A stretch of DNA of 11,831 bases from an uncultured Collinsella sp. (GTDB lineage: Bacteria > Actinomycetota > Coriobacteriia > Coriobacteriales > Coriobacteriaceae), in assembly GCA_900557505.1 (NCBI GenBank), contig USTC01000012.1, positions 1 to 11,831 of the forward strand. Direction: 5' to 3'. This document shows positions 1 through 11,831 of the stretch, piece by piece. Every line of letters starts with the position of its first letter. Position 1 is the first letter of the stretch. The translations under genes and the position numbers were made by a program. The notes below the pieces were generated by a model, which saw only the letters and a list, made by a program, of their open reading frames with translations, was not told the origin of the DNA and searched no databases.

Positions 1-2192
1 TAGCGGGTAGCTATGGCAGCTTGTACCATGCCGGCGCTCATGAGATAGGTCACCAGGAAGTAGCCGCCATAGGCCGCCAGGAAGATTGCACAGGTGAGGC
101 CCACGGTGCCGCCGATGCTCATATTTCCGAATATGCTCACCAGCTCGATGATCACCTTAAGTGCCACAAAGGAGTGCGCCAGGCCCACTGCCAGCGGGAA
201 CAGGAAGAATACAGCTTGCTGCGCCATCACCGAATGGCGAATCTGGCGGTCCTCACAGCCGATCTGTGCCAGCACACGATAGCTGCGGCTGCCGTCGGCC
301 ACGTTGGAGAGTTGCTGGATCGACAGAATCGCCGCGCATGCAACGACCAATACAAAGCCGATGTAGATGGCTAGGTAGCTAATAAGACCGTTCATTTGCG
401 CTGCTTGCGTGTACATCTCGGAGCGTGTGATAAAGATTCCCCACGACCCCGGCTCCTTGCCGTCAACGAGCAGATTGTCGAGCACAGTGTATTTAATGCT
501 CTCGTCTGCCTCGGTCGCATCCATCCCCTGTTTGTAGTTAACGAGCAGGCTACTGGAATACGGCTGCAGATTAAGTTGGGACAACAGCTCGTCGGCAACG
601 ACGACGGTACCCCCATTACTGCCCATCGCCGAGTTGGCGATGGCCGCCGTGTCCTCATCCGACTTATCGGTTGCGGGCTTGAGCGTATACCCGCCCAAGG
701 TAAGGGTATGGCCGTCAGCCATATACTTGGTGTACAGGTCGACCAGCTCGCCGCCCATATCACACGTGAGCAGGTACTGGTCGCGACCGATGTGCACCGG
801 CTCCTCGCCCATCATCTGACGCAGTTTGTTGTACTGGCTCGCCGGCGTCACAAACAGACCCATCGTATCGGCATTGCTACCCCCGAACGCCTTGGGAAGC
901 TTTTCGCCCATGGTCTTGCACATCTCACCTGGGGTCACCGAAGGGTCCGAGCCGCCAAGCGGGTAACTCAGATACGAATCGATCTGCACATGCTCACCGG
1001 CAACATCGGCGATATTGACCTTCTTGCCGGTCTCGTCGTTGTTGCCCGCCGACTTGCCCTTACCGTGCCATGCGGGGTACAAATCGACCGTACTATCGGC
1101 CAGCACCATGCGATCGGCTTCAGACGGATTGATGTACTCTTTGTAGTAGTCGAGCGTATCGGGCGTGTAATAGACATACGTCTGTGACACGTCAACAGGG
1201 TTATAGCGCTCCAGGTTTTCGTTCATCACATTGGCAATCGACATACCGCACGTCACCGAGGTGATGGCCAAAAACAGGAGCATCGCGATGACGCCCATCG
1301 AAAAGCACACCGTGTTGACCTTGGCCGCAAGCTGGCGCACGGTAAACATGTTGAGGCCGCGCCAGTACACGCCGCGCAGGCTCTGCAGCAGCTTGATGAG
1401 CATGCCCGAGAGTCCCCAGAACAGGGCAAAGGTGCCCACGGTAACCATAGCGGTCGTAATGCCAAACTGGTTCATGGCCTCTTGCAGCTTGCTGTCCGTC
1501 GCGGTTAGCGGGAACCCATCACGTAGCAGACGGTAATAGGCCACGCCCACAAGCACCACGCCCACGGCAAAGATGGCAATCGCAATCCAGGGGTTGCGCG
1601 TCTTGATGCTCTCGTTGCGACGCTCGGCACCCATAAGCTCGATGAGTTTGGTACGACGCACGGCGCGAAGGTTCAGCAGTAGCGTGAGCACAAACATTAC
1701 GAGCATGCAGGCAAGGGTCAGATTGAACGCATGCACCGAGAAAAAGAAGTGGAAATTGGCAATCTGTGTCTTAAAAAGCGAGGCCGTAAAGAACGTCATG
1801 AGCTGGGAGAGTCCCACACCCAGCACAATGCCGGCGACAAAGGCCACGACCGAGACAATCACCGTCTCGAGCGCCATGATCGTGGCGACGCGTCCGCGCC
1901 CCATGCCGAGCACCTGATACAGGCCAAACTCCTTCTTGCGGCGTTTCATGATGAAGTTATTGGCATACACCATCAAAAAGGCCATGACACCGGCCAAAAA
2001 GTACGTCAGGTCGCCGAGCATGCTGCCCATAACCTGCGCCAAGCCCTCTTCATCGATTCCGGCGATGTCGACCTGCATCGAGATGGTGTTAAAGGCATAG
2101 AAGACCGTGACGCCCAGGGTGAGCGTCAAAAGGTAGACGAGGTAGTCGCGGCCGGCGCGGCGGACGTTACCCCAAGCGAGTTTACAGAGCAT
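1..2192 (-). CDS. Bce-type ABC transporter permease (FtsX-like), C-terminus at window edge
   Basis: Membrane subunit of a peptide-type ABC exporter, of the kind that detoxifies or senses antimicrobial peptides. The reverse strand stays open for 730 codons from the ATG at 2192. Hydrophobic segments lie near residues 18-38, 55-75, 105-125, 150-175, 200-220, 240-260, 290-310, 605-625, 660-685 and 695-720. A roughly 285-residue hydrophilic region (about 315-600) lies between segments 7 and 8. Ten helices with one large extracytoplasmic domain before helix 8 is the BceB layout. The start overlaps the last 11 bases of the ATPase gene, implying translational coupling. The last two visible bases of the frame are TA, so the next codon is either a stop or Tyr; given the short tail after the last helix, the gene probably ends exactly at the edge. 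Substrate is not inferable. No two-component system is visible, though these exporters often have one nearby. Confidence 0.88.
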   Translation of the reverse strand, partial: MLCKLAWGNVRRAGRDYLVYLLTLTLGVTVFYAFNTISMQVDIAGIDEEGLAQVMGSMLGDLTYFLAGVMAFLMVYANNFIMKRRKKEFGLYQVLGMGRGRVATIMALETVIVSVVAFVAGIVLGVGLSQLMTFFTASLFKTQIANFHFFFSVHAFNLTLACMLVMFVLTLLLNLRAVRRTKLIELMGAERRNESIKTRNPWIAIAIFAVGVVLVGVAYYRLLRDGFPLTATDSKLQEAMNQFGITTAMVTVGTFALFWGLSGMLIKLLQSLRGVYWRGLNMFTVRQLAAKVNTVCFSMGVIAMLLFLAITSVTCGMSIANVMNENLERYNPVDVSQTYVYYTPDTLDYYKEYINPSEADRMVLADSTVDLYPAWHGKGKSAGNNDETGKKVNIADVAGEHVQIDSYLSYPLGGSDPSVTPGEMCKTMGEKLPKAFGGSNADTMGLFVTPASQYNKLRQMMGEEPVHIGRDQYLLTCDMGGELVDLYTKYMADGHTLTLGGYTLKPATDKSDEDTAAIANSAMGSNGGTVVVADELLSQLNLQPYSSSLLVNYKQGMDATEADESIKYTVLDNLLVDGKEPGSWGIFITRSEMYTQAAQMNGLISYLAIYIGFVLVVACAAILSIQQLSNVADGSRSYRVLAQIGCEDRQIRHSVMAQQAVFFLFPLAVGLAHSFVALKVIIELVSIFGNMSIGGTVGLTCAIFLAAYGGYFLVTYLMSAGMVQAAIATR

Positions 2193-2967
2193 CGGAGCCC
2201 TCACCGCCCATCATGGCAACGACCTCCATAATGCGGTCGAAGAACTCTCGGCGGTCGGTGTCGCCACGGCGCAGCTCGGTGAAGATCTTGCCGTCGCGAA
2301 TAAACAGCACACGGCTCGTGTAGCTGGCGGCAAAGCTGTCGTGCGTGACCATGAGCACGGTGGCGCGCAGGCGGCGGTTAAGGGCCTCCAGGCTCTCGAG
2401 CAGCAGGCGAGCGCTCTTGGAATCGAGGGCGCCGGTGGGCTCGTCGGCCATGATCATGGTGGGGTCGGTGACGAGCGCGCGAGCCGCGGCAACGCGCTGC
2501 TGCTGACCGCCGGACATCTGGTAGGGATACTTGTCGAGTACCTGACTGATGGACAGGCGCGCTGCCACATCCTGCACGCGGGTCGAGATCTCTGCCGAGT
2601 TTGTGCGGGCGATGGTGAGCGGCAGGGCGATGTTCTCGCGTGCCGTGAGCGTATCGAGCAGGTTGGAGTCCTGGAAGATAAAGCCAAGCTCCTCGCGGCG
2701 GAACTGCGAAAGCTTAGCCTGCTTCATGCGTGTTACGTCCTGCCCGTTGATGCGGATCGTGCCACTTGTGGCGCTATCGATGGTCGAGACGCAGTTGAGC
2801 AACGTCGACTTGCCCGAGCCCGAAGCACCCATGATGCCAACGAATTCGCCGCGGTTGACGGTAAAGCTGACGTCGTTGAGCGCGCGGGTCACGTTGCCCA
2901 ACGCGCCGTATACGTTTTCGAGATGCGCGACCTCCAGTACCGGGGTCGCCATGTGCGTGGTTTGCAT
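2182..2967 (-). CDS. Bce-type ABC transporter ATP-binding protein
   Basis: Cytoplasmic ATPase that powers the adjacent permease, 261 residues. All nucleotide-binding elements are present: Walker A GASGSGKST (47-55), Q-loop in FQDSNLLD (Q99), signature MSGGQQQR (151-158), Walker B IMADEP (171-176), D-loop GALD and switch His in THD (H209). FIFQDSNLLDTLT and DEPTGALDSK are close to BceA/YxdL and the wider MacB/LolD group, which fits an FtsX-type partner. The start ATG at 2967 is preceded by AAAGGA at a six-base spacing; a second in-frame ATG at residue 6 is less well placed. The stop lies inside the permease start region (11-base overlap). It diverges from the Nudix-Vsr gene across 148 bases, where I see no convincing sigma-70 promoter for either side. 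Confidence 0.93.
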   Translation of the reverse strand: MQTTHMATPVLEVAHLENVYGALGNVTRALNDVSFTVNRGEFVGIMGASGSGKSTLLNCVSTIDSATSGTIRINGQDVTRMKQAKLSQFRREELGFIFQDSNLLDTLTARENIALPLTIARTNSAEISTRVQDVAARLSISQVLDKYPYQMSGGQQQRVAAARALVTDPTMIMADEPTGALDSKSARLLLESLEALNRRLRATVLMVTHDSFAASYTSRVLFIRDGKIFTELRRGDTDRREFFDRIMEVVAMMGGEGSDAL

Positions 2968-3115
2968 ACCGAGTCCTTTCTTGCGATTAGTCTACGGCAT
3001 CTATAGTCGCAAGAAGACGAGTCGGCTACCATCGATATGGCTTACGCTTGCCTTACCGTTGTGTAAGGTACGGGTAGCTAGCCTGCCACGCGTTGATGTT
3101 GAGAGAGGACTCCTG

Positions 3116-4105
3116 TTGAAGACTGTTCATGTTGCCGCTGGGATCATTCGCAAGGAAGGATCTGACGAGCTGCTTGCCGTGCAGCGCGGCTACGGCGACA
3201 TGCGGGGACTTTGGGAGTTCCCGGGCGGCAAGCTCATGCGCGGCGAGACACCCGAAGACGCCGTACGCCGCGAGCTTATGGAAGAGTTGCAGGTAAAAGT
3301 CACCAACCTGCGTGATTTCTATACCGTTGAGTACGACTACCCCGATTTCCATCTCTCCATGGAGTGCTACTACTGCTCACTCGCCGATGAATCCGATGAG
3401 CCCCAGAAGCACGACCGCCAGCTCGATATCCGCTGGATTCCGCGTACCTCGCTTGCCACGGTGGAATGGATGCCCGCCGACAAGGGACTCATTGATGCCC
3501 TGATTGAGTTGAAGGAAGACCGGCTTGAGGCCAACGGCGCTGCCAACGACGCCGAGGCCACCGCGACCGACGAGCCCGCCACCAAGCCCAAGCGCGCACC
3601 TAAGCGCCGTAGCAAAAAGCGCCCCAAACCAGGTCTGCTCGACGGCATCGATACCTCGGACCTTTCCGCCGACGAGCGCGAACTGGTGCGCCGTCGCGCC
3701 GCCATAAAAAAGTCCATGAAGGGCAACAAACGTGCGAACACCAAGCCCGAGCTGCTCGTACGACAGCGCCTGCGCGCCGCGGGCCTTACGGGCTATCGCT
3801 TGGAATGGAAGGTTCCCGGCAAACCCGACATCGCCTTCCCCGGACGCAAGATCGCCATCTTCGTCAACGGCTGCTTTTGGCATCGCTGCCCTAAGTGCAA
3901 TCCGAGCCAGCCCAAGCGCAACGTTGAGTTTTGGGAGGCAAAGTTCCGTCGCAACGTCGAGCGCGACCGAGCAGCCATCAACGCACTCACCCAAATGGGC
4001 TGGACACCCATAACCATCTGGGAATGCGAGCTCAAAAAAGACCGCATCGACGGCACGATGGAAAAGGTCATCGAACAAGTACGCGCCGCCGCACCGCAGC
4101 GCTAG
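3116..4105 (+). CDS. Nudix hydrolase - Vsr mismatch endonuclease fusion protein
   Basis: One uninterrupted 329-residue frame carries two repair activities. Residues about 1-136 are a MutT/NudG-like Nudix hydrolase: the Nudix box at 38-60 has G38, E44, R52-E53 and E56-E57, with Gln59 in place of the usual Gly. Residues about 201-329 match very-short-patch repair endonucleases. D238 (in GKPD) and H256 (in GCFWH) keep the 18-residue spacing of E. coli D51 and H69. C253 and C304 (WEC) match the spacing of zinc ligands C66 and C117, and C258 sits where H71 would be. E. coli T63 and H64 are Val and Asn here. A Lys/Arg/Pro-rich linker (157-172) joins the domains. The TTG start at 3116 has GAGAGAGGA just upstream at ideal spacing and falls right before the first Nudix strand. 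An internal ATG at 3716 has no clear ribosome site. Likely roles: destroying damaged or modified dNTPs and nicking T:G mismatches. Substrates are inferred from family only. Confidence 0.87.
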   Translation: MKTVHVAAGIIRKEGSDELLAVQRGYGDMRGLWEFPGGKLMRGETPEDAVRRELMEELQVKVTNLRDFYTVEYDYPDFHLSMECYYCSLADESDEPQKHDRQLDIRWIPRTSLATVEWMPADKGLIDALIELKEDRLEANGAANDAEATATDEPATKPKRAPKRRSKKRPKPGLLDGIDTSDLSADERELVRRRAAIKKSMKGNKRANTKPELLVRQRLRAAGLTGYRLEWKVPGKPDIAFPGRKIAIFVNGCFWHRCPKCNPSQPKRNVEFWEAKFRRNVERDRAAINALTQMGWTPITIWECELKKDRIDGTMEKVIEQVRAAAPQR

Positions 4106-4279
4106 GAACGAGCCGTCCACACGCCCCACACAGGCGAGCCACATCCGCGCCACAAACCTTAGAAAGCCCTTAAGCTCAAAACCTTTCAAGAGTGTTACTC
4201 AATAGCCTTGACCTGCGGTTTCATTGTTACATCAAACCTGATTAAGCCTTTCTTTAGCGCTTCTTTGCAACAGCCGCGG

Positions 4280-4336
4280 CATAATACTGCCAACGCACGG
4301 AACCTAGCAGCATACCCCGTGCGCAACCTTTTGGTG
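4280..4336 (+). promoter_or_regulatory. Candidate promoter -10 and structured 5' leader upstream of a small ORF
   Basis: A perfect 7-base inverted repeat, CGCACGG (4294-4300) and CCGTGCG (4317-4323), encloses a 16-base loop. It is extended by TGCCAA (4288-4293) pairing with TTGGTG (4331-4336, two wobble pairs) across a 7-base bulge on the 3' side. A CATAAT box at 4280-4285 (five of six matches to TATAAT) lies just before it, though no good -35 is present. A transcript from it would begin in or near the hairpin and reach the strong GAGGAGG at 4343-4349. I do not recognise it as a known riboswitch class. The stretch 4106-4279 before it contains no gene I can support; TTGACC at 4208-4213 is an isolated -35-like match with a poor -10. 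Confidence 0.35.
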
Positions 4337-4359
4337 GACATCGAGGAGGCCGCATAAGC

Positions 4360-4569
4360 ATGCATTCTTCCAATGACGCAGCACAGCAGCCATCCCTAAA
4401 TCATGCAAACCTTTTCTCCTTCCCCCCGACACAGAGAAACGGTCTCCTCGACTCCCCCACCACAAAAGCAAAACGCTCAACCGACCAGAGCCACAACTTG
4501 CGAGCATCGTTCGAAAAGCTCCAAGCCTCACTAGACCAGGCATTCCCCAACCAAGCCCGAGCATACTAG
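4360..4569 (+). CDS. Small hypothetical protein, 69 residues
   Basis: Short frame starting at an ATG preceded by GAGGAGG (4343-4349), a strong ribosome site but with a long ten-base spacing. The protein is polar, rich in Ser, Gln, Asn, Ala and Pro, with a possible short amphipathic helix near its C-terminus (about residues 48-60). It shows no signal peptide, no membrane segment and no motif I recognise. Its base composition is less GC-rich than the flanking genes. The candidate leader hairpin upstream and the purine-rich site argue that something is translated here, but the frame could also be chance. It converges on the aldolase gene, with the large palindrome between them. Confidence 0.4.
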   Translation: MHSSNDAAQQPSLNHANLFSFPPTQRNGLLDSPTTKAKRSTDQSHNLRASFEKLQASLDQAFPNQARAY

Positions 4570-4637
4570 CCCCTCATCAACAAGGCGCCCCTCGCGCACC
4601 ATCCTTCCCGCCCCAACGCCACAAGGGCGATCGAGCA

Positions 4638-4789
4638 GGACGGCTTGGGCAGGTCCCCGTACTTAGTTTCCAAAATCATTCCGCAGCGCGAAGGCCCCCG
4701 TTGTCAACGCTTCGAAGAAGCGAGACAACGGGGGCCTTCATGCGCGAGGACGTTTTGGAAACTAAGTACGGGACCCGCCCAAACCGTCC
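4638..4789. repeat. 152-bp imperfect palindrome, MITE-like or giant bidirectional hairpin
   Basis: Three nested inverted repeats share one centre. The outer arms (about 4638-4675 and 4753-4789) match over almost their whole length, including a perfect 17-base block, GTACTTAGTTTCCAAAA at 4659-4675 and its complement at 4753-4769. The middle arms are a perfect 16-base G/C-rich stem at 4690-4705 and 4724-4739. The innermost hairpin is CGCTTC-GAA-GAAGCG (4708-4722). The arms differ only in an internal loop of about 13-15 bases per side and a few substitutions. It lies between the convergent small ORF and the aldolase gene, whose stop is 24 bases away, so it could end transcription from both sides. 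Neither side of the G/C stem has the T-run of a standard intrinsic terminator. No coding frame or target-site duplication is seen. Nothing else is seen in 4570-4813. Confidence 0.85.
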
Positions 4790-4813
4790 GGTGGGATCAG
4801 AGTACCCTTGCTG

Positions 4814-5671
4814 TTACTCTGCTTTGCCCACAGAGTTGAGGTTGGTCATGCGGATCTTAACCAGCTCGGTGATCTCACGCATGCCCTCCTTGGCCGGCTT
4901 CTTGGGATCGAAGCAGGCAGGGTTCTCGGCCATGTAGGCCATGAAGCCCTTAGTGTAGGCCTGACGCAGCTCGGTGGCGTAGTTGACCTTGCAGATGCCG
5001 TTCTTCACAGCCTCGGCAACCTGCTCATCGGGCACACCGGAAGTGCCGTGCAGAACCAGCGGCACGTCGACGGCGTCGCGGATGGCCTTGACCACGGACT
5101 GCTCGATGTGGGGATCGCTCGTGTACACGCCGTGGCTGGTGCCAACGCCAATAGCGAGAGAGGTGCAGCCGGTGCGCTCGACGAACTCCTTGGCCTCGGC
5201 AGGATCGGTGTAGGGGCTCTCGCCCTCAACCGCGGGACCGTCGTCCTCCTTGCCGCCAACCTTGCCGAGCTCGGCCTCGACGGGCACGCCCATGGCGCGG
5301 CCAGCATCGGCGACGGACTTGGTCAGGGCGATGTTGTCCTCGAAGGACTCGTGCGAACCGTCGATCATGACGGAGGTGTAACCAGTGCGGAAGGCCTGCA
5401 TGCAGCGGTCATAGCCATCGCCGTGATCGAGGTGCAGGGCGACGGGCACGGAAGCGCGCTCGGCGGCAGCCTTGACCATGCCGTAGAAGTAGTCCAGACC
5501 AGCGGTCTTGATGGTGCCCGGGGTGGTCTGCATGATGACGGGGGACTTGGTCTCCTCGGCAGCGGCCAGAACGGCCATAACAAACTCGAGGTTCTCGACG
5601 TTGAAAGCGCCAACAGCGTAGTGGCCGGCCTGAGCGTCCTTGAGCATCTTTTCGGTGGTAACAAGTGCCAT
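4814..5671 (-). CDS. Class II ketose-1,6-bisphosphate aldolase (fructose- or tagatose-bisphosphate)
   Basis: Zinc-dependent aldolase, 285 residues, the usual size for the FbaA/GatY/KbaY group. It cleaves a ketose bisphosphate to dihydroxyacetone phosphate and glyceraldehyde 3-phosphate in the cytoplasm. HLDHG at 80-84 gives the catalytic Asp82 and zinc ligand His83; further zinc ligands are His180 (TSHG) and His208 (LHGTSG). VEAELG at 131-136 is the usual family block. The ATG at 5671 follows AGGAG at nine bases and begins the normal first helix; the longer open frame reaching 5812 adds residues unlike the family. KbaY-like features (TPGT, and ENP...DP near the C-terminus) and a DeoR regulator next door leave tagatose-bisphosphate possible; central glycolysis is equally plausible. 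I leave the symbol blank because sequence alone does not decide the substrate. Confidence 0.92.
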   Translation of the reverse strand: MALVTTEKMLKDAQAGHYAVGAFNVENLEFVMAVLAAAEETKSPVIMQTTPGTIKTAGLDYFYGMVKAAAERASVPVALHLDHGDGYDRCMQAFRTGYTSVMIDGSHESFEDNIALTKSVADAGRAMGVPVEAELGKVGGKEDDGPAVEGESPYTDPAEAKEFVERTGCTSLAIGVGTSHGVYTSDPHIEQSVVKAIRDAVDVPLVLHGTSGVPDEQVAEAVKNGICKVNYATELRQAYTKGFMAYMAENPACFDPKKPAKEGMREITELVKIRMTNLNSVGKAE

Positions 5672-5728
5672 GAGCGTTTGCTCCTCTCCCTCGCCCGCAT
5701 CTGGACATCGGGCGTAGTTGTTCACAAG

Positions 5729-5789
5729 GCGTTTTACCTTGCGTTTTACTGCGCCCATTGTATGAAATTCGACGGCTTCGCATGTGCGA
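5729..5789 (-). promoter_or_regulatory. Aldolase promoter region with direct repeat and palindrome (candidate operators)
   Basis: Reading the minus strand, TACAAT (5762-5757) is a good -10 box, with no clear -35. A perfect dyad, TCGCA-TG-TGCGA at 5778-5789, occupies the -35 area. Two copies of the 9-mer GCGTTTTAC (plus-strand sense) at 5729-5737 and 5741-5749, twelve bases apart, cover about the first 20 transcribed bases. Sites placed like this could let a repressor or activator control the aldolase gene; the divergent DeoR-family protein is the obvious candidate. Function is inferred; the repeats are seen directly. Confidence 0.4.
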
Positions 5790-5862
5790 GATATTGAGCC
5801 CATGCAGGTCAATACAGTCGTTTTTGAAAAGTAAACGGAAGGAATTGGAGCCGAGTGGGCGT

Positions 5863-5906
5863 ATTCGATATTGAATTTTGGGCGTTCAGCGTCTTTTTTT
5901 TATAGA
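5863..5906 (+). promoter_or_regulatory. deoR-type regulator promoter with near-palindromic site
   Basis: TTGGGC (5878-5883), a 17-base spacer and TATAGA (5901-5906) make a moderate sigma-70 type promoter in a markedly AT-rich stretch that includes an eight-base T run. Just upstream, ATTCGATATTGAAT (5863-5876) is a 14-base palindrome with one mismatched pair, well placed for autoregulation. The rest of the 334-base gap (5672-6005) holds the aldolase promoter sites and an A-rich leader of about 90 bases before the regulator start. Confidence 0.35.
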
Positions 5907-6005
5907 AAAGATAAGTAATCGAAAGGTGTTTTCTTACTCAAAAAGAAAATGAACGAAAATAGACTCAACACAATTCCTACAAATTTAGCCGAGAATGGAG
6001 CAAAC

Positions 6006-6809
6006 ATGGCCCACGCAACAACCCGAGCTTTCGCCGATGAGCGTCGTTCCGCCATCATGGAGATGCTCGAGCATAACGCCTCGGTGCAAGTGGCAGAAAT
6101 CGCCCAGACCTTTGGCGTGTCCTCCGTTACCGCCCGCGCCGACCTGGACGCGCTCGCCGAGTCCGGCAAGTTGCGCCGCACGCATGGTGGCGCCGTGTCT
6201 CTCCAGAAGCGACTGACCGTATCCACCCAGGATCGCCGCATCAACGTCAATGTCGCCGCCAAGCAAGCCATCGCGCAAAGCGCCATCGAGCTCGTCGGCA
6301 ATGGTGACACCCTGCTCGTAGACTCCGGCACCACCGCTCTCGAGTTTGTCCGGCTCCTCGATCAGCGCGACGGCATCACCGTCATCACGGCCGACATTAC
6401 CATTGCCGATTACATCGACGAGAGCATGCCCTCAGTCGATGTCGTCATGTTGGGCGGGGCACTGCGCAAAGGCCATCGTTATTTGTACGGACCGCTCACT
6501 ATGCAGGCGCTCCAAATGGTCCATGCCGATCTGGCCGTCATGTGCCCCGGTGCCTTTGTCCCCAGCTGCGGCTTTACGACCGACTTTCCGCAGATGGCCG
6601 AAACCAAAGCGGCTATGGTCGGTACCGCCCGTCAAAGCGTCGCCCTCATGGACGCCAGCAAGGTTAACGGACGCGGCATGTACCGCTTTGCCAAGCTGAC
6701 CGATGTCGACACCATCGTGATGGACCGTGATCCCGATGGCGCCGTCGCCACCTCAATCGCCGAGACCGCCGACGACGCCCGCCCAAATCTCGTCATCGCC
6801 GGCGCTTAA
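6006..6809 (+). CDS. DeoR/GlpR-family sugar-phosphate-responsive transcriptional regulator
   Basis: 267-residue cytoplasmic DNA-binding regulator. The N-terminal winged helix-turn-helix (about 9-62) shows the DeoR pattern: R-x-x-I at the first helix, VAEIAQTFGVSSVTARADLDAL (28-50, given here as a range) and the RTHGGA wing at 58-63. The sensor domain has DSGTT (106-110), the usual phosphosugar-binding loop, MLGG (148-151), and DASKVNGRGMYRFA near 216-229, as in GlpR, FruR and AgaR relatives. The ATG at 6006 is chosen because GGAG lies five bases upstream; an in-frame ATG at 5949 has a weak site and adds an atypical Asn-rich leader. It diverges from the aldolase gene, so control of that gene by a phosphorylated sugar is likely. 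The effector cannot be told from sequence. Confidence 0.92.
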   Translation: MAHATTRAFADERRSAIMEMLEHNASVQVAEIAQTFGVSSVTARADLDALAESGKLRRTHGGAVSLQKRLTVSTQDRRINVNVAAKQAIAQSAIELVGNGDTLLVDSGTTALEFVRLLDQRDGITVITADITIADYIDESMPSVDVVMLGGALRKGHRYLYGPLTMQALQMVHADLAVMCPGAFVPSCGFTTDFPQMAETKAAMVGTARQSVALMDASKVNGRGMYRFAKLTDVDTIVMDRDPDGAVATSIAETADDARPNLVIAGA

Positions 6810-6814
6810 ACAAA

Positions 6815-6851
6815 AACCACCACAAAGGTGCCTGTCCCCTTTGTGGTGGTT
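6815..6851. terminator. Bidirectional intrinsic terminator between convergent genes
   Basis: A perfect 14-base stem, AACCACCACAAAGG (6815-6828) and its complement (6838-6851), with a 9-base loop. Read on the minus strand it is followed by TTTTTGTTT, a good T-tract, so it should end the flavodiiron transcript. On the plus strand the T-tract is poor, but the hairpin lies only six bases after the regulator's stop. The loop and adjoining stem bases read GGTGCCTGTCCCC. Confidence 0.82.
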
Positions 6852-6883
6852 GTGATGGCTGAGCGTCAAAAGTGAACGTGTCG

Positions 6884-8044
6884 CTACTTGGAAAGCTCGT
6901 CGGCGAGGGCCTCGATCTGAGCGCGCGAGGCGTCGTTGAGCGAGCCCAGCACAGTCACCTTGTTCTGCGCCAGGGTGATGTCCTTCATGCCCTCGAGCTC
7001 CTTGGTCATAACCTTGGCAGCTGCAGGCGCCCAGGAACCGGCCTCGACAAGCGCCACGGTACGGTTCTGATAGGCGTGCTCGGCAAGCGTGTGGATAAAG
7101 GTGCTCATGAACGGGAAGATCTCGCCCTGATAGGTGATGGAGGCAAGCACCAGACGGTCATAGCGGAACGCATCCTCAACGGCCTCGGCCATGTCGTCGC
7201 GAGCCAGGTCAAAGACGGAGACCTTCTGGCCGCGGGCCTCGAGAGCAGATGCGAGCTCCTCAACGGCAGCCTTCAGATGGCCGTACACGCTCGCATAGGC
7301 AATCGTGATGCCCTCGTCCTCGGGCTGATAGCTCGACCAGGTGTTGTAGGTGTCGAGGTAGTAGCCCAGATTCTCGGTAAGAACAGGACCATGGAGCGGG
7401 CAGATGATCTGGATGTCCAGGCCGGCGGCCTTCTTGAGCACGGCCTGCACGAACTTGCCGAACTTACCGACGATGCCAAAGTAGTAGCGGCGCGCTTCGC
7501 AAGCCCAGCCTTCCGGGTCCTCGATGTCGTTAGCACCGAACTTGCCAAAGCCGTCGGCACTAAAGAGTACCTTGTCGGTGGACTCGTAGGAGAAAATCAC
7601 CTCGGGCCAGTGAACGTTGGGAGCGCCGACAAACGTTAGGCTGTGACCGCCCAGATCGAGCACGTCGCCCTCTTTGACGACCATTTTGCGCTCGGGGTAG
7701 TCGGTGCCAAAGTAGTTGACCATCATGCGGAAAGCACCCACGCTGGCCACAATCTGTGCCTGGGGATAGCGCTCCATAAAGGCGGCGATACCGGCGGAGT
7801 GATCGGGCTCCATGTGATGAACAACCAGGTAGTCGGGCGTACGGCCATCGAGCGCGGCCTCGAGGTTGCCGAGCCACTCGTCGACAAAGCCAGCGTCGAC
7901 CGAATCGGCGACAGCGATTTTATCGCCCAAGATAACGTAGCTGTTGTATGCCATACCGTTCTCGGACACGTCGTACTGGCCCTCGAACAGGTCAATGTCG
8001 TGATCGTTGACGCCAATGTAGCGGATATCCTTGGTGATCTCCAT
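6884..8044 (-). CDS. Flavodiiron protein (A-type flavoprotein, oxygen or nitric oxide reductase)
   Basis: Cytoplasmic enzyme of 386 residues that reduces O2 to water, or NO to N2O, protecting anaerobes. The N-terminal metallo-beta-lactamase-like domain has all diiron ligands: H77, E79, D81 and H82 in HHMEPDHS, then H145 (NVHWPE), D164 (FSADGFG) and H218 (CPLHGP). The C-terminal half from about residue 245 is flavodoxin-like; its phosphate loop reads ASVYGHLKA, different from the common T-x-T/S-G-x-T form but expected in position. No rubredoxin or flavin-reductase domain follows, so this is the minimal two-domain class and needs an external electron donor. The ATG at 8044 follows AGGAGG at nine bases; the longer open frame to 8107 crosses the promoter. 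It lies 129 bases downstream of lacI on the same strand but has its own promoter signal. Confidence 0.95.
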   Translation of the reverse strand: MEITKDIRYIGVNDHDIDLFEGQYDVSENGMAYNSYVILGDKIAVADSVDAGFVDEWLGNLEAALDGRTPDYLVVHHMEPDHSAGIAAFMERYPQAQIVASVGAFRMMVNYFGTDYPERKMVVKEGDVLDLGGHSLTFVGAPNVHWPEVIFSYESTDKVLFSADGFGKFGANDIEDPEGWACEARRYYFGIVGKFGKFVQAVLKKAAGLDIQIICPLHGPVLTENLGYYLDTYNTWSSYQPEDEGITIAYASVYGHLKAAVEELASALEARGQKVSVFDLARDDMAEAVEDAFRYDRLVLASITYQGEIFPFMSTFIHTLAEHAYQNRTVALVEAGSWAPAAAKVMTKELEGMKDITLAQNKVTVLGSLNDASRAQIEALADELSK

Positions 8045-8060
8045 CAGGCAAAGCCTCCTA

Positions 8061-8087
8061 GATAGACAAAAGAACCCGTCTATCATA
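8061..8087 (-). promoter_or_regulatory. Flavodiiron gene promoter with overlapping inverted repeat
   Basis: On the minus strand, TGC followed by TATGAT (8087-8082) is an extended -10 box (five of six matches) with a weak -35. A 7-base inverted repeat, GATAGAC/GTCTATC in plus-strand arms 8061-8067 and 8078-8084 with a 10-base spacer, overlaps the -10 and the likely start point and ends just before the AGGAGG ribosome site. It could be an operator or a leader hairpin. Confidence 0.4.
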
Positions 8088-8173
8088 GCACTCGCCTTTA
8101 GAGCCACGGCTATCTGCTAGCATCCCTACCGATTGTTATTGAAATGCGATAAAGCGCCGTTTACCTGCACAAA

Positions 8174-9205
8174 CTATGCGCGCGGTGCCGCCGTACTATG
8201 TCGAATGATGAGCCGGCCGGGAATACGAATGGCAACAGTTTTGCCCGCCGTACCCGCCTCGGGAACCGCATGCTCGAATACCTCGCGTCCGCGCTGATGT
8301 AGATCGAATCGAACGGTCGTGAGCTCGTTATGCGCGACAAAGTCGTCGAGCGAGTCATCGACGCCCACCACGCTCACGTCCTCGGGCACGCGCAGGCCGC
8401 TATCGCGCAGCGCTGCAATGGCGCCGTTTGCCATCTGGTCGTTTGCCGCGTAAATCGCCGTCATGGTGCGATCGTGCTCGGCCAGGTACCTGCCAGCTTC
8501 GTAACCGCTGTTGGCAGACCAGTCACCCTCGAGCGGCGCCTGTGGCTTAATGTGCTTACGCTCGAGCGCATCCTGCCAGCCGGCGCGACGAAATTGCTCG
8601 TCAACCGAGAACGACGGTCCGCCAATATAGCGAATTTGCTCGTGTCCCAGCTCAAACAGGTGATCCATGAGCAGCAGCGAGCAGCCGTAATGGTCGGAAT
8701 CGACCGTGGTCACGCGCGGATGCGCGTACATGGTAACGATGACCGTGCCGATACCCGGCAGCGGATCAAACGTCTCAAAATCGGGAGCCATGCGGCTCAT
8801 GCCGATAATGATGCCGTCCACGGGCAGCGCGGCCATACGACGCGTTGCCTCGGCAAGCGAGAATTCCTCGGTCTTGGACATCTCGACCAGCGTGATGGCG
8901 CAGTTATGCTCGCGAGCAGCGCTGGCGATGCCGTCGATCATTGAGAGGTTGCCAAACTTGGTGACATCGTTGACGCACAGGCCGACCGAATGGTAACGGC
9001 CATCGCGCAGCGAGCGACCGGCATAACTCGGACGAAAGCCGAGCTCTTGCATAGCGGCCTGCACGCGCTGGCGCGTCTGCTCGTTAACGTTGGGCAAGCC
9101 GTTGGCAACGCGCGAAACCGTCTGCTGCGAAACACCGGCAGCGCGGGCAACGTCAGCCATGGATACCGGACGCGTACCTGTATCGTTGGAAGGGCGCCTT
9201 GCCAC
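8174..9205 (-). CDS. LacI/GalR-family transcriptional repressor
   Basis: 343-residue repressor, normal LacI-family length. Residues 14-60 are the LacI helix-turn-helix and following helices (VSMADVARAAGVSQQTVSRV), then the hinge helix GRSLRDGR at 63-70. From about 72 a periplasmic-binding-protein-like sensor follows, with VDGIIIG (129-135), GHEQIRYIGG (187-196), AIYAANDQMANGA (250-262) and VVGVDDS (279-285), the usual ligand-domain landmarks. The GTG at 9205 is preceded by AAGGTG at five bases and starts at the right distance from the DNA-binding domain. It is divergent from galK with repeated 17-base sites between, so it most likely represses galKT and itself, released by galactose or a derivative. 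The inducer is inference. Confidence 0.94.
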   Translation of the reverse strand: MARRPSNDTGTRPVSMADVARAAGVSQQTVSRVANGLPNVNEQTRQRVQAAMQELGFRPSYAGRSLRDGRYHSVGLCVNDVTKFGNLSMIDGIASAAREHNCAITLVEMSKTEEFSLAEATRRMAALPVDGIIIGMSRMAPDFETFDPLPGIGTVIVTMYAHPRVTTVDSDHYGCSLLLMDHLFELGHEQIRYIGGPSFSVDEQFRRAGWQDALERKHIKPQAPLEGDWSANSGYEAGRYLAEHDRTMTAIYAANDQMANGAIAALRDSGLRVPEDVSVVGVDDSLDDFVAHNELTTVRFDLHQRGREVFEHAVPEAGTAGKTVAIRIPGRLIIRHSTAAPRA

Positions 9206-9299
9206 AAAATCACCTTCACCCTTGCGAGATCTGAATAGCGTGAATGCCGGCCCGGGCAGAGATACACCCCGCGCCGAGGCCCGCTATCGTCGGACGCAT

Positions 9300-9344
9300 G
9301 TTAACGTACTCTACTTTTTCTATCTGCATCTCTTCTGCTTTATA
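9300..9344 (-). promoter_or_regulatory. lacI promoter -10 and partial operator copy in its leader
   Basis: On the minus strand TATAAA (9344-9339) is a good -10 with a weak -35. Plus-strand bases 9300-9311, GTTAACGTACTC, are identical to the first 12 bases of the 17-base galK operators, but the far arm (TACTT instead of ATAAC) is lost. It lies about 20-30 bases into the predicted lacI transcript, a place suited to autorepression with weaker binding. Confidence 0.5.
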
Positions 9345-9417
9345 AGTCCATACGGCACTACCGTTCACGGCCGAATATCGACCGATTACCAGATTCTCAA
9401 AAAGTGACAAGCGTTGT

Positions 9418-9434
9418 GTTATGAGTACGTTAAC
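9418..9434. promoter_or_regulatory. Putative LacI-family operator O1, overlapping the galK -35 box
   Basis: GTTATGAGTACGTTAAC is a dyad with GTTA/TAAC arms, and one base further out on each side also pairs (TGTTA...TAACA). The same 17 bases recur as the exact reverse complement at 9487-9503. Its right arm overlaps the galK promoter -35, so a bound repressor would block RNA polymerase. Confidence 0.7.
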
Positions 9435-9458
9435 ATAGCCCGTAACGTGCGGTATCGT
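9430..9458 (+). promoter_or_regulatory. galKT promoter
   Basis: TTAACA (9430-9435, five of six matches to TTGACA), a 17-base spacer and TATCGT (9453-9458, four of six). Predicted start is near 9465, giving an 80-base leader that contains the second operator. The overlap with O1 supports negative control. Confidence 0.6.
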
Positions 9459-9486
9459 GAACACTTGGTTCATGCCGCTTCAAGTT

Positions 9487-9503
9487 GTTAACGTACTCAT
9501 AAC
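9487..9503. promoter_or_regulatory. Putative LacI-family operator O2, downstream of the galK start point
   Basis: GTTAACGTACTCATAAC, the exact reverse complement of O1, centred 69 bases from it and about 30 bases into the predicted galK transcript. A pair of sites flanking the promoter fits repression by roadblock or DNA looping. Confidence 0.7.
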
Positions 9504-9543
9504 GACGCAAAACTCACCCGTGCGCGCCAAGGAAAGGACTCCC

Positions 9544-10749
9544 ATGACCACCCCCGACGAAAAGACATTCGCCACGCTCACCAAGCTGTTCGAGGAGGAG
9601 TTTGGCCCCATCGGCGATCGCCAGGTGCTCTATGTGCACGCGCCCGGCCGTTCCGAGATCAGTGGCAACCACACCGACCACGAGGGCGGCCACGTCATCG
9701 CCGGCTCGCTCGATGTCGCCGTTGACGGTATCGCCGTGGCAACCGACTCCAACAAGGTCCGCGTCGCCGACGAGGGCTACCCCACGTTTGAGATTACCCT
9801 CGACACGCTGAATGTTCAGGAGTCCGAGAAGGGCACGTCCGCAAGCCTCGTGCGCGGTATGGCCCACGAGATCGCAGCCCTTGGCGTTGAGCCCCACGGC
9901 TTCGACTTCGCCTTCACCTGCTCCGTCCCCTCGGGCGGCGGTCTTTCGAGCTCCGCTGCCGTCGAAGCCGCATACGGACGCGCCATGGAAACCCTCTGGG
10001 GCGCGCCCGCAATTGAGCCCGTCGCACTCGCCCAAATGAGCCAGCGCACCGAGAACAACTATTATGGCAAGCCCTGCGGTCTGATGGACCAGGCCGCCGT
10101 ATGTCTGGGCGGCCTTGCCTACATGGACTTTGAGGACCAGGCTCAGCCTAAAACCCAGAAGCTCGAGCTCAACTTTGAGGATCACGGCTATGCGCTCGTG
10201 CTCGTTAAGGTCGGTGCCGACCACGTGGCAGCCACCGACGACTACGCCGCCGTTCCGCGCGAGATGCAGGACGTTGCCGCCGAGTTTGGCAAGGCACGCC
10301 TGTGCGAGGTAAACGTTGCCGACTTTGACGCCAAACTCCCCGAACTGCGTGCCAAGCTGGGCGACCGTGCCTGCCTACGCGCCGTTCACTACTGGTACGA
10401 GAATGGCCTGGTCGACAAGCGCTGGGCCGCCCTGAACGCCGGCGACATCGACCAGTTCCTGATCCTGACGCGCGAGTCCGGCGCCAGCTCTGCTATGTAC
10501 CTGCAGAATGTCGTTGCCAAGCTGGGCTCCGAGCAGCCTTCCATGTATGCCCTGGCGCTGGCCGAGCACGTGCTCGACGGCCGCGGCGCCGTCCGCATCC
10601 ACGGTGGCGGCTTTGGTGGCACCATCCAGGCCTTCGTGCCCCTCGACCTGGTCGACACCTTTATCACCAAGATGAACGACTGGCTGGGCGAGGGCTCTGC
10701 CCGCCACTACGCAATTTCTGACAAGGGGGCTTACGCGGCATGGCTGTAA
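9544..10749 (+). CDS. galK: Galactokinase
   Basis: GHMP-family kinase of 401 residues that phosphorylates alpha-D-galactose with ATP to galactose 1-phosphate, the first Leloir step. The galactokinase signature reads GRSEISGNHTDH at 35-46, a variant of the textbook GRxNLIGEHTDY that keeps the catalytic Arg36 and the H-T-D core. The ATP loop is PSGGGLSSSAA (129-139), the likely catalytic Asp is D182 in CGLMDQ, and motif 3 is HGGGFGGT (353-360). The ATG at 9544 follows GGAAAGGA (9531-9538) at five bases; the open frame extends to 9457, but that part holds the operator and leader. The stop overlaps the galT start, so the two are cotranslated. Control is by the LacI-type sites upstream. Confidence 0.95.
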   Translation: MTTPDEKTFATLTKLFEEEFGPIGDRQVLYVHAPGRSEISGNHTDHEGGHVIAGSLDVAVDGIAVATDSNKVRVADEGYPTFEITLDTLNVQESEKGTSASLVRGMAHEIAALGVEPHGFDFAFTCSVPSGGGLSSSAAVEAAYGRAMETLWGAPAIEPVALAQMSQRTENNYYGKPCGLMDQAAVCLGGLAYMDFEDQAQPKTQKLELNFEDHGYALVLVKVGADHVAATDDYAAVPREMQDVAAEFGKARLCEVNVADFDAKLPELRAKLGDRACLRAVHYWYENGLVDKRWAALNAGDIDQFLILTRESGASSAMYLQNVVAKLGSEQPSMYALALAEHVLDGRGAVRIHGGGFGGTIQAFVPLDLVDTFITKMNDWLGEGSARHYAISDKGAYAAWL

Positions 10750-11831
10750 TGACCGACGTGCGCAAGGCTGCCCAGGGCCTTATCGAATATGCCATCCACC
10801 GATCGATGATCGGACAGGACGATCGCATCTGGGCATACAACACCATTTTGGAGTGCATCGGCGCCACGGGCCCCGCGCTCGACATGACCTGGGCGCTGCA
10901 GAACGAGAAGCTCTCGCTCTTGCACCCCGATACCCTGCCCGACTTTGACCTGGAGGGCACGCTTGTCTCGCTTTCCGAGGCTGCCGTTGCCAACGGCGCC
11001 GCCGAGGACACGACGTCGGGCCGCGACCGCATCGCTATGCGCATCATGGGCGTGCTCATGCCGAGGCCTTCGGTTGTAAACGAGGAGTTCAACGGACGTA
11101 TGGGCGTCAACGAGCCCCGCGCCGCGACCGACTGGTTCTACGGTCTGTGCTGCGACGCCGGCTACGTGCGCCGTGCCGCCATCGCGCGCAACATCAAATG
11201 GAGCACCCCCACCAACTGGGGTGACCTGGAGATCACCATCAACCTGTCGAAGCCCGAGAAGGACCCGCGCGATATTGCCGCGGCCGGCGCCGCCAAAAAC
11301 ACGGGCGAGAAGTATCCCGCCTGTCAGCTCTGCATCGAAAACGAGGGCTACCCCGGACGCTCCGCCGCAGCCGACGGCGGCGCCCACCCCGCTCGCCAGA
11401 ATCTGCGCGTTATCCCCATTGAGCTCAACGGCGAGCGCTGGGGCTTCCAATACAGCCCGTACGCGTACTTTAACGAGCACTGCATTGCCATGAGCTCCGA
11501 GCATCGTCCGATGCACGTCGACCGCAAGGGGCTGACCTGCCTGCTCGACTTTGTCGACCTGTTCCCGCACTACTTTATTGGCTCCAACGCCGACCTGCCC
11601 ATCGTGGGCGGCTCGATTCTGTCGCACGACCACTTCCAGGGCGGCGCGCACGAGTTCCCCATGATGCATGCCGCTGAGGTCTCGCAGTTTAGCGTGCCCG
11701 GTTTTGACCAGGTCAGCGGTACCGTGTTGCAGTGGCCGCTTTCGGTGCTGCGACTGCGCTCGCACGACCGCGCCCAGCTGCTCGACGCCGCCGAGAAGAT
11801 TATCCTCGCCTGGCGCGAGTGGACCGATGAG
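10740..11831 (+). CDS. galT: UDP-glucose-hexose-1-phosphate uridylyltransferase, class II (partial, 3' end off window)
   Basis: Second Leloir enzyme: exchanges galactose 1-phosphate with UDP-glucose to give UDP-galactose and glucose 1-phosphate. 364 codons are visible of a family that usually has about 490-510. It belongs to the class II GalT type (Bacillus, Lactobacillus), not the E. coli type: GSNADLPIVGGSILSHDHFQ ends at residue 300 with the H-D-H-F-Q active site, the second His (H298) being the expected uridylylated nucleophile. CQLCIENEGYPGR near residue 198 is also a class II block. The start at 10740 overlaps galK by ten bases with GGGGG (10725-10729) upstream; an alternative ATG at 10749 forms a TAATG junction with the galK stop. 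Both are in the same frame and differ by three residues. Confidence 0.94.
   Translation, partial: MAVMTDVRKAAQGLIEYAIHRSMIGQDDRIWAYNTILECIGATGPALDMTWALQNEKLSLLHPDTLPDFDLEGTLVSLSEAAVANGAAEDTTSGRDRIAMRIMGVLMPRPSVVNEEFNGRMGVNEPRAATDWFYGLCCDAGYVRRAAIARNIKWSTPTNWGDLEITINLSKPEKDPRDIAAAGAAKNTGEKYPACQLCIENEGYPGRSAAADGGAHPARQNLRVIPIELNGERWGFQYSPYAYFNEHCIAMSSEHRPMHVDRKGLTCLLDFVDLFPHYFIGSNADLPIVGGSILSHDHFQGGAHEFPMMHAAEVSQFSVPGFDQVSGTVLQWPLSVLRLRSHDRAQLLDAAEKIILAWREWTDE

Follow-up and report, generated by a model that had tools for sequence, protein, structure and literature searches.

The closest described relatives of the protein studied here are the Vsr endonuclease of Escherichia coli (TIGR00632; PDB 1cw0) and two kinds of Nudix enzyme, namely MutT (an 8-oxo-dGTP diphosphatase) and NudG together with mycobacterial MutT2 (CTP-type). 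The protein is encoded in an 11,831-nucleotide stretch of DNA from an uncultured Collinsella sp. (contig USTC01000012.1, positions 1 to 11,831; "the window"), where a single gene at 3116..4105 joins a MutT-type Nudix domain to a Vsr endonuclease domain. Its Vsr half differs from E. coli Vsr in having no adjoining methyltransferase gene, in occurring in a class whose sampled genomes contain no MutL, in being fused to a Nudix domain, and in carrying Asn and Cys at the positions of H64 and H71. Its Nudix half falls below the curated cut-offs for MutT and NudG, and differs in the lost box glycine and in an Asp at the place of MutT N119.

Two further systems invite comparison. NucS/EndoMS of other Actinomycetota, which makes double-strand cuts, is alike in that a lone nuclease may deal with mismatches independently of MutS–MutL, but belongs to a different family from Vsr. 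A survey described in the consulted sections of PMC5290159 reports it absent from Coriobacteriia, where we found only marginal PF01939 matches. Caulobacter VsrA is likewise a Vsr-like enzyme encoded away from any methyltransferase gene, but it is DUF559-type and its genome has the ScmA methylase and MutS–MutL, according to excerpts of PMC12907096 and PMC1839093. We find that the Nudix–Vsr gene is a genuine fusion and that Vsr is decoupled from C5-methyltransferases in three families of the order Coriobacteriales. Tentatively, and giving it slightly less than an even chance, we read the protein as a housekeeping repair enzyme: a resident, context-tolerant T:G nickase that would have been freed from its methyltransferase and then fused to MutT.

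A Nudix–Vsr fusion gene in Coriobacteriaceae

The gene occupies 3116..4105 on the forward strand as one open frame of 329 aa, from a TTG start to a TAG stop at 4103–4105. The TTG start is supported by most relatives, whose first residue is the same one, encoded by ATG, GTG or TTG (MKTV, VKTV or LKTV). Residues 1–135 (3116..3520, forward) form the MutT-type Nudix domain, with its Nudix box at residues 38–60 and a PF00293 match over residues 5–123 (68.7 bits against a Pfam cut-off of 21.1). Residues 195–305 (3698..4030, forward) form the Vsr domain, matched by PF03852 over residues 197–257 (62 bits, Pfam cut-off 27) and by TIGR00632 over its whole length (109.1 bits, NCBIfam cut-off 97.85). Between the domains lies a Lys/Arg-rich variable linker (residues 136–180; 3521..3655, forward), supported by alignment, structure prediction and substitution rates. 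Both Pfam domains are present in 113 of the best 120 of 1348 database homologues, and named matches (Collinsella sp., C. tanakaei and two C. aerofaciens contigs) place the window's fusion in Collinsella.

The window's family, f1 in our sample, is Coriobacteriaceae, as the named Collinsella contigs fall in it; the order's two other families, f2 and f3, we take to be Atopobiaceae and Eggerthellaceae. The fusion occurs in 60 of 65 f1 genomes, 33 with one full-length match and 27 with both halves in one open frame; one genome counted as fused (G536) has a TAG inside the aligned Vsr stretch. Because both halves share one open frame in these 60 genomes, the fusion is real and not a frameshift or assembly error, and the initial annotation was right to report a continuous frame. 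Vsr is unfused in four f1 genomes, all of one genus, and in G523, which belongs to the Collinsella genus, nothing matched at E up to 1e-30.

Among fetched Vsr loci, 24 of 25 are fused in f1, 0 of 16 in f2 and 0 of 15 in f3. Across a 396-genome sample of the phylum, scored at up to five candidates per genome, the fusion was found in f1 only, among the matches listed, and a scan of named genomes with a generic Nudix pattern gave two C. aerofaciens fusions among the 80 loci listed. The architecture is thus common inside one family, and elsewhere there is none among the phylum matches listed; given those matches and the best 120 of 1348 homologues, independent fusions may exist outside f1. The initial annotation did not recall it as described, and among the top matches of our literature searches on Vsr with Nudix we likewise found no description; a search on very short patch (VSP) repair with Collinsella gave no paper.

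Both active sites, initially annotated as intact, are nearly so. In the Vsr half, E212, D238, H256 and D284 are invariant in 51 aligned Vsr domains and correspond to E. coli E25, D51, H69 and D97, the catalytic residues listed in the portion of PMC12907096 available. E. coli active-site H64 is not kept and is replaced by N251; this position is not strictly defining for Vsr, because functional Neisseria Vsr enzymes are said to carry Asp there (same portion of PMC12907096). C253, C258, C261 and C304 are invariant in 16 aligned fusions. They probably make up a zinc site fitting that of E. coli Vsr, whose ligands we take to be C66, H71, C73 and C117, with Cys in place of H71 and a one-residue shift of the third ligand. 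Of the residues first picked out (Asp238, His256, Cys253 and Cys304, with E. coli spacing), the first two belong to the catalytic set and the two cysteines to the zinc site.

In the Nudix half, every residue of the box signature GX5EX7REUXEEXGU is present except the last Gly, which is Q59 in the window and Q, A, H, D, K, N or G in the 16 aligned fusions; D122 occupies the position of N119 in E. coli MutT. The MutT equivalog TIGR00586 scores 84.1 bits (cut-off 97.9), the NudG equivalog NF007834 61.1 bits (cut-off 156), and the best Nudix model, NF006530, 90.6 bits, far below its cut-off of 245. By sequence score this half is nearer to MutT than to NudG and passes neither curated cut-off. Comparison of the protein with Pfam gave no match to PF01939 (NucS).

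Across 13 pairs of fusions, the ratio of non-synonymous to synonymous substitution rates (dN/dS) is 0.015–0.23 for the Nudix domain and 0.023–0.17 for the Vsr domain, compared with 0.156–1.02 for the linker in 12 of the 13 pairs (dS was saturated in the other). Both domains are under purifying selection and the linker is less constrained. Alignment shows the linker to be very short in many relatives, and in the predicted structure residues 135–168 have a predicted local distance difference test (pLDDT) score below 50. A whole-protein structure search was filled by Nudix folds, so the Vsr half was modelled alone; its predicted structure has the Vsr fold. The placing of one half relative to the other is predicted without confidence (predicted template modelling score, pTM, 0.43).

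The variable length and relaxed constraint of the linker, together with this undefined arrangement, would fit a chance joining of two unrelated housekeeping genes whose halves work alone, the fusion itself being meaningless; f2 and f3 retain Vsr in unfused form, and MutT-type genes also occur on their own. Set against this are the retention of the fused state in 60 of 65 genomes and an f2 genome (G087, locus L071) in which a MutT-type Nudix gene lies divergently beside an unfused Vsr. We regard a meaningless fusion as rather unlikely. The alternatives weighed in this and the following sections overlap in part with one another and with our main reading.

Vsr apart from C5-methyltransferases in three families

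Vsr is present in 81 of 149 Coriobacteriia genomes: 25 of 25 in f1, 16 of 23 in f2, 15 of 20 in f3 and 25 of 81 in other families. In the three families, a C5-methyltransferase match turns up in only one of 56 Vsr neighbourhoods (5.7–19.9 kb), where a fragment of 102 aa lies 6.5 kb away from Vsr (G129); none of the 24 fusion loci has such a match nearby. By contrast, 24 of the 25 Vsr genomes in the rest of the class carry a C5-methyltransferase within ∼1.6 kb of Vsr; in the exception (G114), Vsr lies 171 bases from a contig end. The phmmer test used for these neighbourhoods is incompletely sensitive, having overlooked a methyltransferase beside one G050 copy (L005) that a PF00145 scan showed.

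Genome-wide, 16 of the 56 Vsr genomes of the three families have no PF00145 match, compared with 0 of 25 outside them. Among the 65 f1 genomes, 45 have a match and 20 do not; 17 of these 20 are fused, so that 17 of 60 fusion genomes are without PF00145, including one on a single contig at 99% completeness (G143) and one that is 76% complete (G545). Vsr is decoupled from methyltransferases in the three families.

A Vsr tree of 90 rows places the window and the 24 fused loci in one clade (support 100/99), 13 f2 rows in another (100/99), and ten f3 rows together with a single f2 row in a third (100/97). Vsr linked to methyltransferases in other orders falls just outside these clades, except that one such row (G062) lies inside the wider group; support for the deeper forks is weak. 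A separate mixed branch is made up of six rows, including the unfused f1 gene from G117, and an f2 row from G097 sits far off among distant Vsr. The tree left out L065, L250 and L251 as too short and L003, L008–L020 and L112 as repeat loci already represented. Separately, a metagenome-assembled contig assigned to Sulfurimonadaceae (L158, 3881–4390) carries a Vsr 59% identical to that of the window and adjoining a C5-methyltransferase; this is likely a transfer or contamination.

The initial annotation had tied the two halves together through 5-methylcytosine, on the grounds that NudG acts on 5-methyl-dCTP (stated in the part of PMC5158307 consulted) and that Vsr repairs deaminated 5-methylcytosine. 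The distribution does not bear this out: neither the 24 fusion loci nor 17 of the 60 fusion genomes offer the cognate C5-methyltransferase, adjoining or elsewhere in the genome, by which classical VSP repair is recognised. Moreover, both domains are tightly conserved between G001 and G143, neither of which has a PF00145 match (dN/dS 0.027 for Nudix and 0.023 for Vsr).

The 5-methylcytosine account survives only in a roaming form of VSP repair, in which the Vsr half would mend 5-methylcytosine-to-T changes with a tolerant specificity that serves any acquired C5-methyltransferase, adjacency being unneeded. The PF00145 matches in 45 of 65 family genomes are consistent with this, as are a Caulobacter Vsr-like protein that works with an unlinked solitary methyltransferase (PMC12907096, in excerpt) and the tolerant Neisseria Vsr enzymes described in the consulted part of PMC6116569. 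The fusion genomes without PF00145, the Vsr dN/dS between two of them, and a genomic guanine-plus-cytosine content (GC) that tracks Vsr and not the C5-methyltransferase argue against it, and we consider it unlikely.

Mismatch-repair background, genome GC and a candidate T:G corrector

Neither MutS_V nor MutL_C is found over its cut-off in any of the 149 Coriobacteriia genomes, with two sub-threshold MutS_V genomes set aside, compared with matches in 11 of 14 control genomes; the lack of a MutL or MutS partner first remarked on for the window thus extends across the class. The NucS family PF01939 matches 20 of the 149 genomes at E up to 0.001, six of them over the cut-off and the best at 31 bits, with matches in 7 of 14 controls; from these marginal scores we judge the class matches to be general nuclease-fold resemblance and not NucS. 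As stated in the available text of Castaneda-Garcia et al. 2017 (PMC5290159), all analysed Coriobacteriia are without NucS and MutS–MutL, and further unknown pathways were not discarded. UDG-family (uracil-DNA glycosylase) genes occur in 143 of the 149 genomes, and uracil repair is probably covered in the class.

Sequence, predicted fold, selection and decoupling point to a likely resident T:G endonuclease. We propose that it descended from a methyltransferase-linked Vsr whose partner was lost near the base of the order, and that these bacteria, in which MutS, MutL and NucS are missing, kept the orphan as a T:G corrector free of sequence context; fusion to MutT would have followed in Coriobacteriaceae. 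The Vsr half would nick 5' of the T in a T:G mismatch, with resynthesis giving C:G, and the MutT-type half would clear the pool of a mutagenic (deoxy)nucleotide; the two halves may cooperate. Such an enzyme may be a partial stand-in for mismatch repair in the order, to which the MutT fusion might bring a benefit. Because it would always keep the G, the corrector would be GC-biased and blind to the new strand.

A T:G nickase that always keeps the G should raise GC, and we compared GC with Vsr presence across the three families in 71 genomes, sampling 5.7–80 kb of each for GC. Seven genomes whose Vsr lies outside the main family clades (G097, G099, G117, G147, G037, G053 and G137) were scored as Vsr-bearing. 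After genome size and family are taken into account, GC is 0.10 higher with Vsr (t 7.4, n = 71), whereas C5-methyltransferase presence has no effect (t 0.11). A genus-level permutation within families, in which genera with both Vsr states gave two units, yields p 1.5e-4 (34 units, 8 without Vsr). All nine genomes with GC below 0.566 were scored Vsr-less, compared with Vsr in 58 of the 62 others, and G523 has a GC of 0.474 against 0.568–0.645 in 20 other sampled genomes of the Collinsella genus.

The association could be a by-product of genome reduction and drift, which would cause both gene loss and lower GC with Vsr playing no causal part. Losses cluster in genera, and 8 of the 13 Vsr-less genomes measure 1.5–1.7 Mb. 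The effect nevertheless stands with size modelled and when the comparison is restricted to genomes no larger than 2.2 Mb (t 6.9, n = 37), and small Vsr-bearing genomes are GC-richer, as in the same-genus pair G517 (1.7 Mb, with Vsr; 0.569) and G523 (1.7 Mb; 0.474). Another repair gene, Tag, is linked to GC more weakly (t 1.46 by itself and 2.82 alongside Vsr, n = 68). A by-product seems to us possible, though the less probable outcome.

Several observations weigh against our main reading. The link is a correlation, its statistics made without a genome tree and its GC values sampled; four Vsr-less genomes do not have low GC (G093 0.662, G113 0.636, G135 0.595 and G003 0.588), 8 of the 13 Vsr-less genomes are small, as noted above, and a distant Vsr may lie elsewhere in G523, where the check covered one locus and matches with E up to 1e-30. 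Judged by eye, observed/expected ratios of CTAG, CTWGG and CCWGG do not separate Vsr-bearing from Vsr-less genomes and were set aside as uninformative. Vsr is no universal repair replacement, because many genomes of the class are without it (12 of 68 in the three families, 56 of 81 elsewhere), and with the UDG family near universal, plain cytosine deamination needs no Vsr. MutL, which stimulates known Vsr enzymes (PMC6116569, in part), was not found in any of the 149 genomes (MutL_C), a further departure from classical VSP repair. Finally, a T:G corrector blind to strand repairs only a share of replication errors and turns the remainder into T-to-C errors.

The same k-mer counts showed CTAG to be depleted in nearly all sampled genomes, with or without Vsr, and CTGG to be slightly lower, by eye, in most Vsr-less ones.

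In its widest form, our proposal would make orphan Vsr, MutT-fused in Coriobacteriaceae, a third bacterial start to mismatch correction: free of MutS, MutL and NucS, strand-blind, and converting T:G to C:G genome-wide. It would yield fewer transitions to A:T and help to set the GC of Coriobacteriales, which would tend to fall on loss of the gene. We think this broader claim rather unlikely.

Chromosomal setting and significance

The fusion has a conserved chromosomal place, marked by a divergent ABC-transporter ATPase gene (PF00005; 2182..2967, reverse strand) and the permease of the same ABC pair (3..2204, reverse), FtsX-type by place and look and cut by the window end; in relatives this permease adjoins the fusion. 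Of 24 fused loci, 23 have the ABC–FtsX pair close by: 22 share the window's arrangement, and in G079 the pair is on the opposite side. The 24th locus is at a contig end. Downstream (4814–11831) lie genes of ordinary sugar metabolism: a class II fructose-bisphosphate aldolase, DeoR and LacI regulators, an ODP-type flavoprotein, a galactokinase and, by place, galT. G523 keeps the ABC–FtsX pair, with a stand-alone Nudix domain ∼1.9 kb away (L265) that may be a remnant of the fusion.

In f2, an ApaH-like metallophosphoesterase gene directly follows the unfused Vsr in 13 of 16 loci (L067–L072, L076–L082), and a relative of DNA-deoxyinosine glycosylase comes next in 4 of 16 (on L078 alone, TIGR04274 scores 114 bits against a cut-off of 80). 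These neighbours suggest a repair setting for f2 Vsr.

An anti-phage role, in which a Nudix-nuclease would target phage DNA or modified phage nucleotides, is raised by PADLOC matches of the Nudix half to the candidate model PDC-S07 (E 1.6e-38) and of the Vsr half to a Vsr model (E 2.4e-17). PDC-S07 is a candidate label, known to us from table entries in PMC11514479, and the fusion is near-universal in its family, vertically inherited and fixed in place, unlike typical defence genes. The conserved ABC–FtsX neighbourhood at 23 of 24 loci is no variable defence island, although neighbours were not scanned for defence genes. We consider defence very improbable.

How Coriobacteriia, which are common gut bacteria, control mutation without MutS–MutL or NucS is a question raised in the consulted text of PMC5290159. 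Kept by nearly the whole family in a class without known mismatch repair, the fusion may belong to the missing repair route, and it offers a conserved, testable candidate gene for part of mutation control in one order, where natural losses allow comparison. If our reading is true, an accessory enzyme of restriction-modification would have turned into a core repair gene, and a repair enzyme would be steering base composition.
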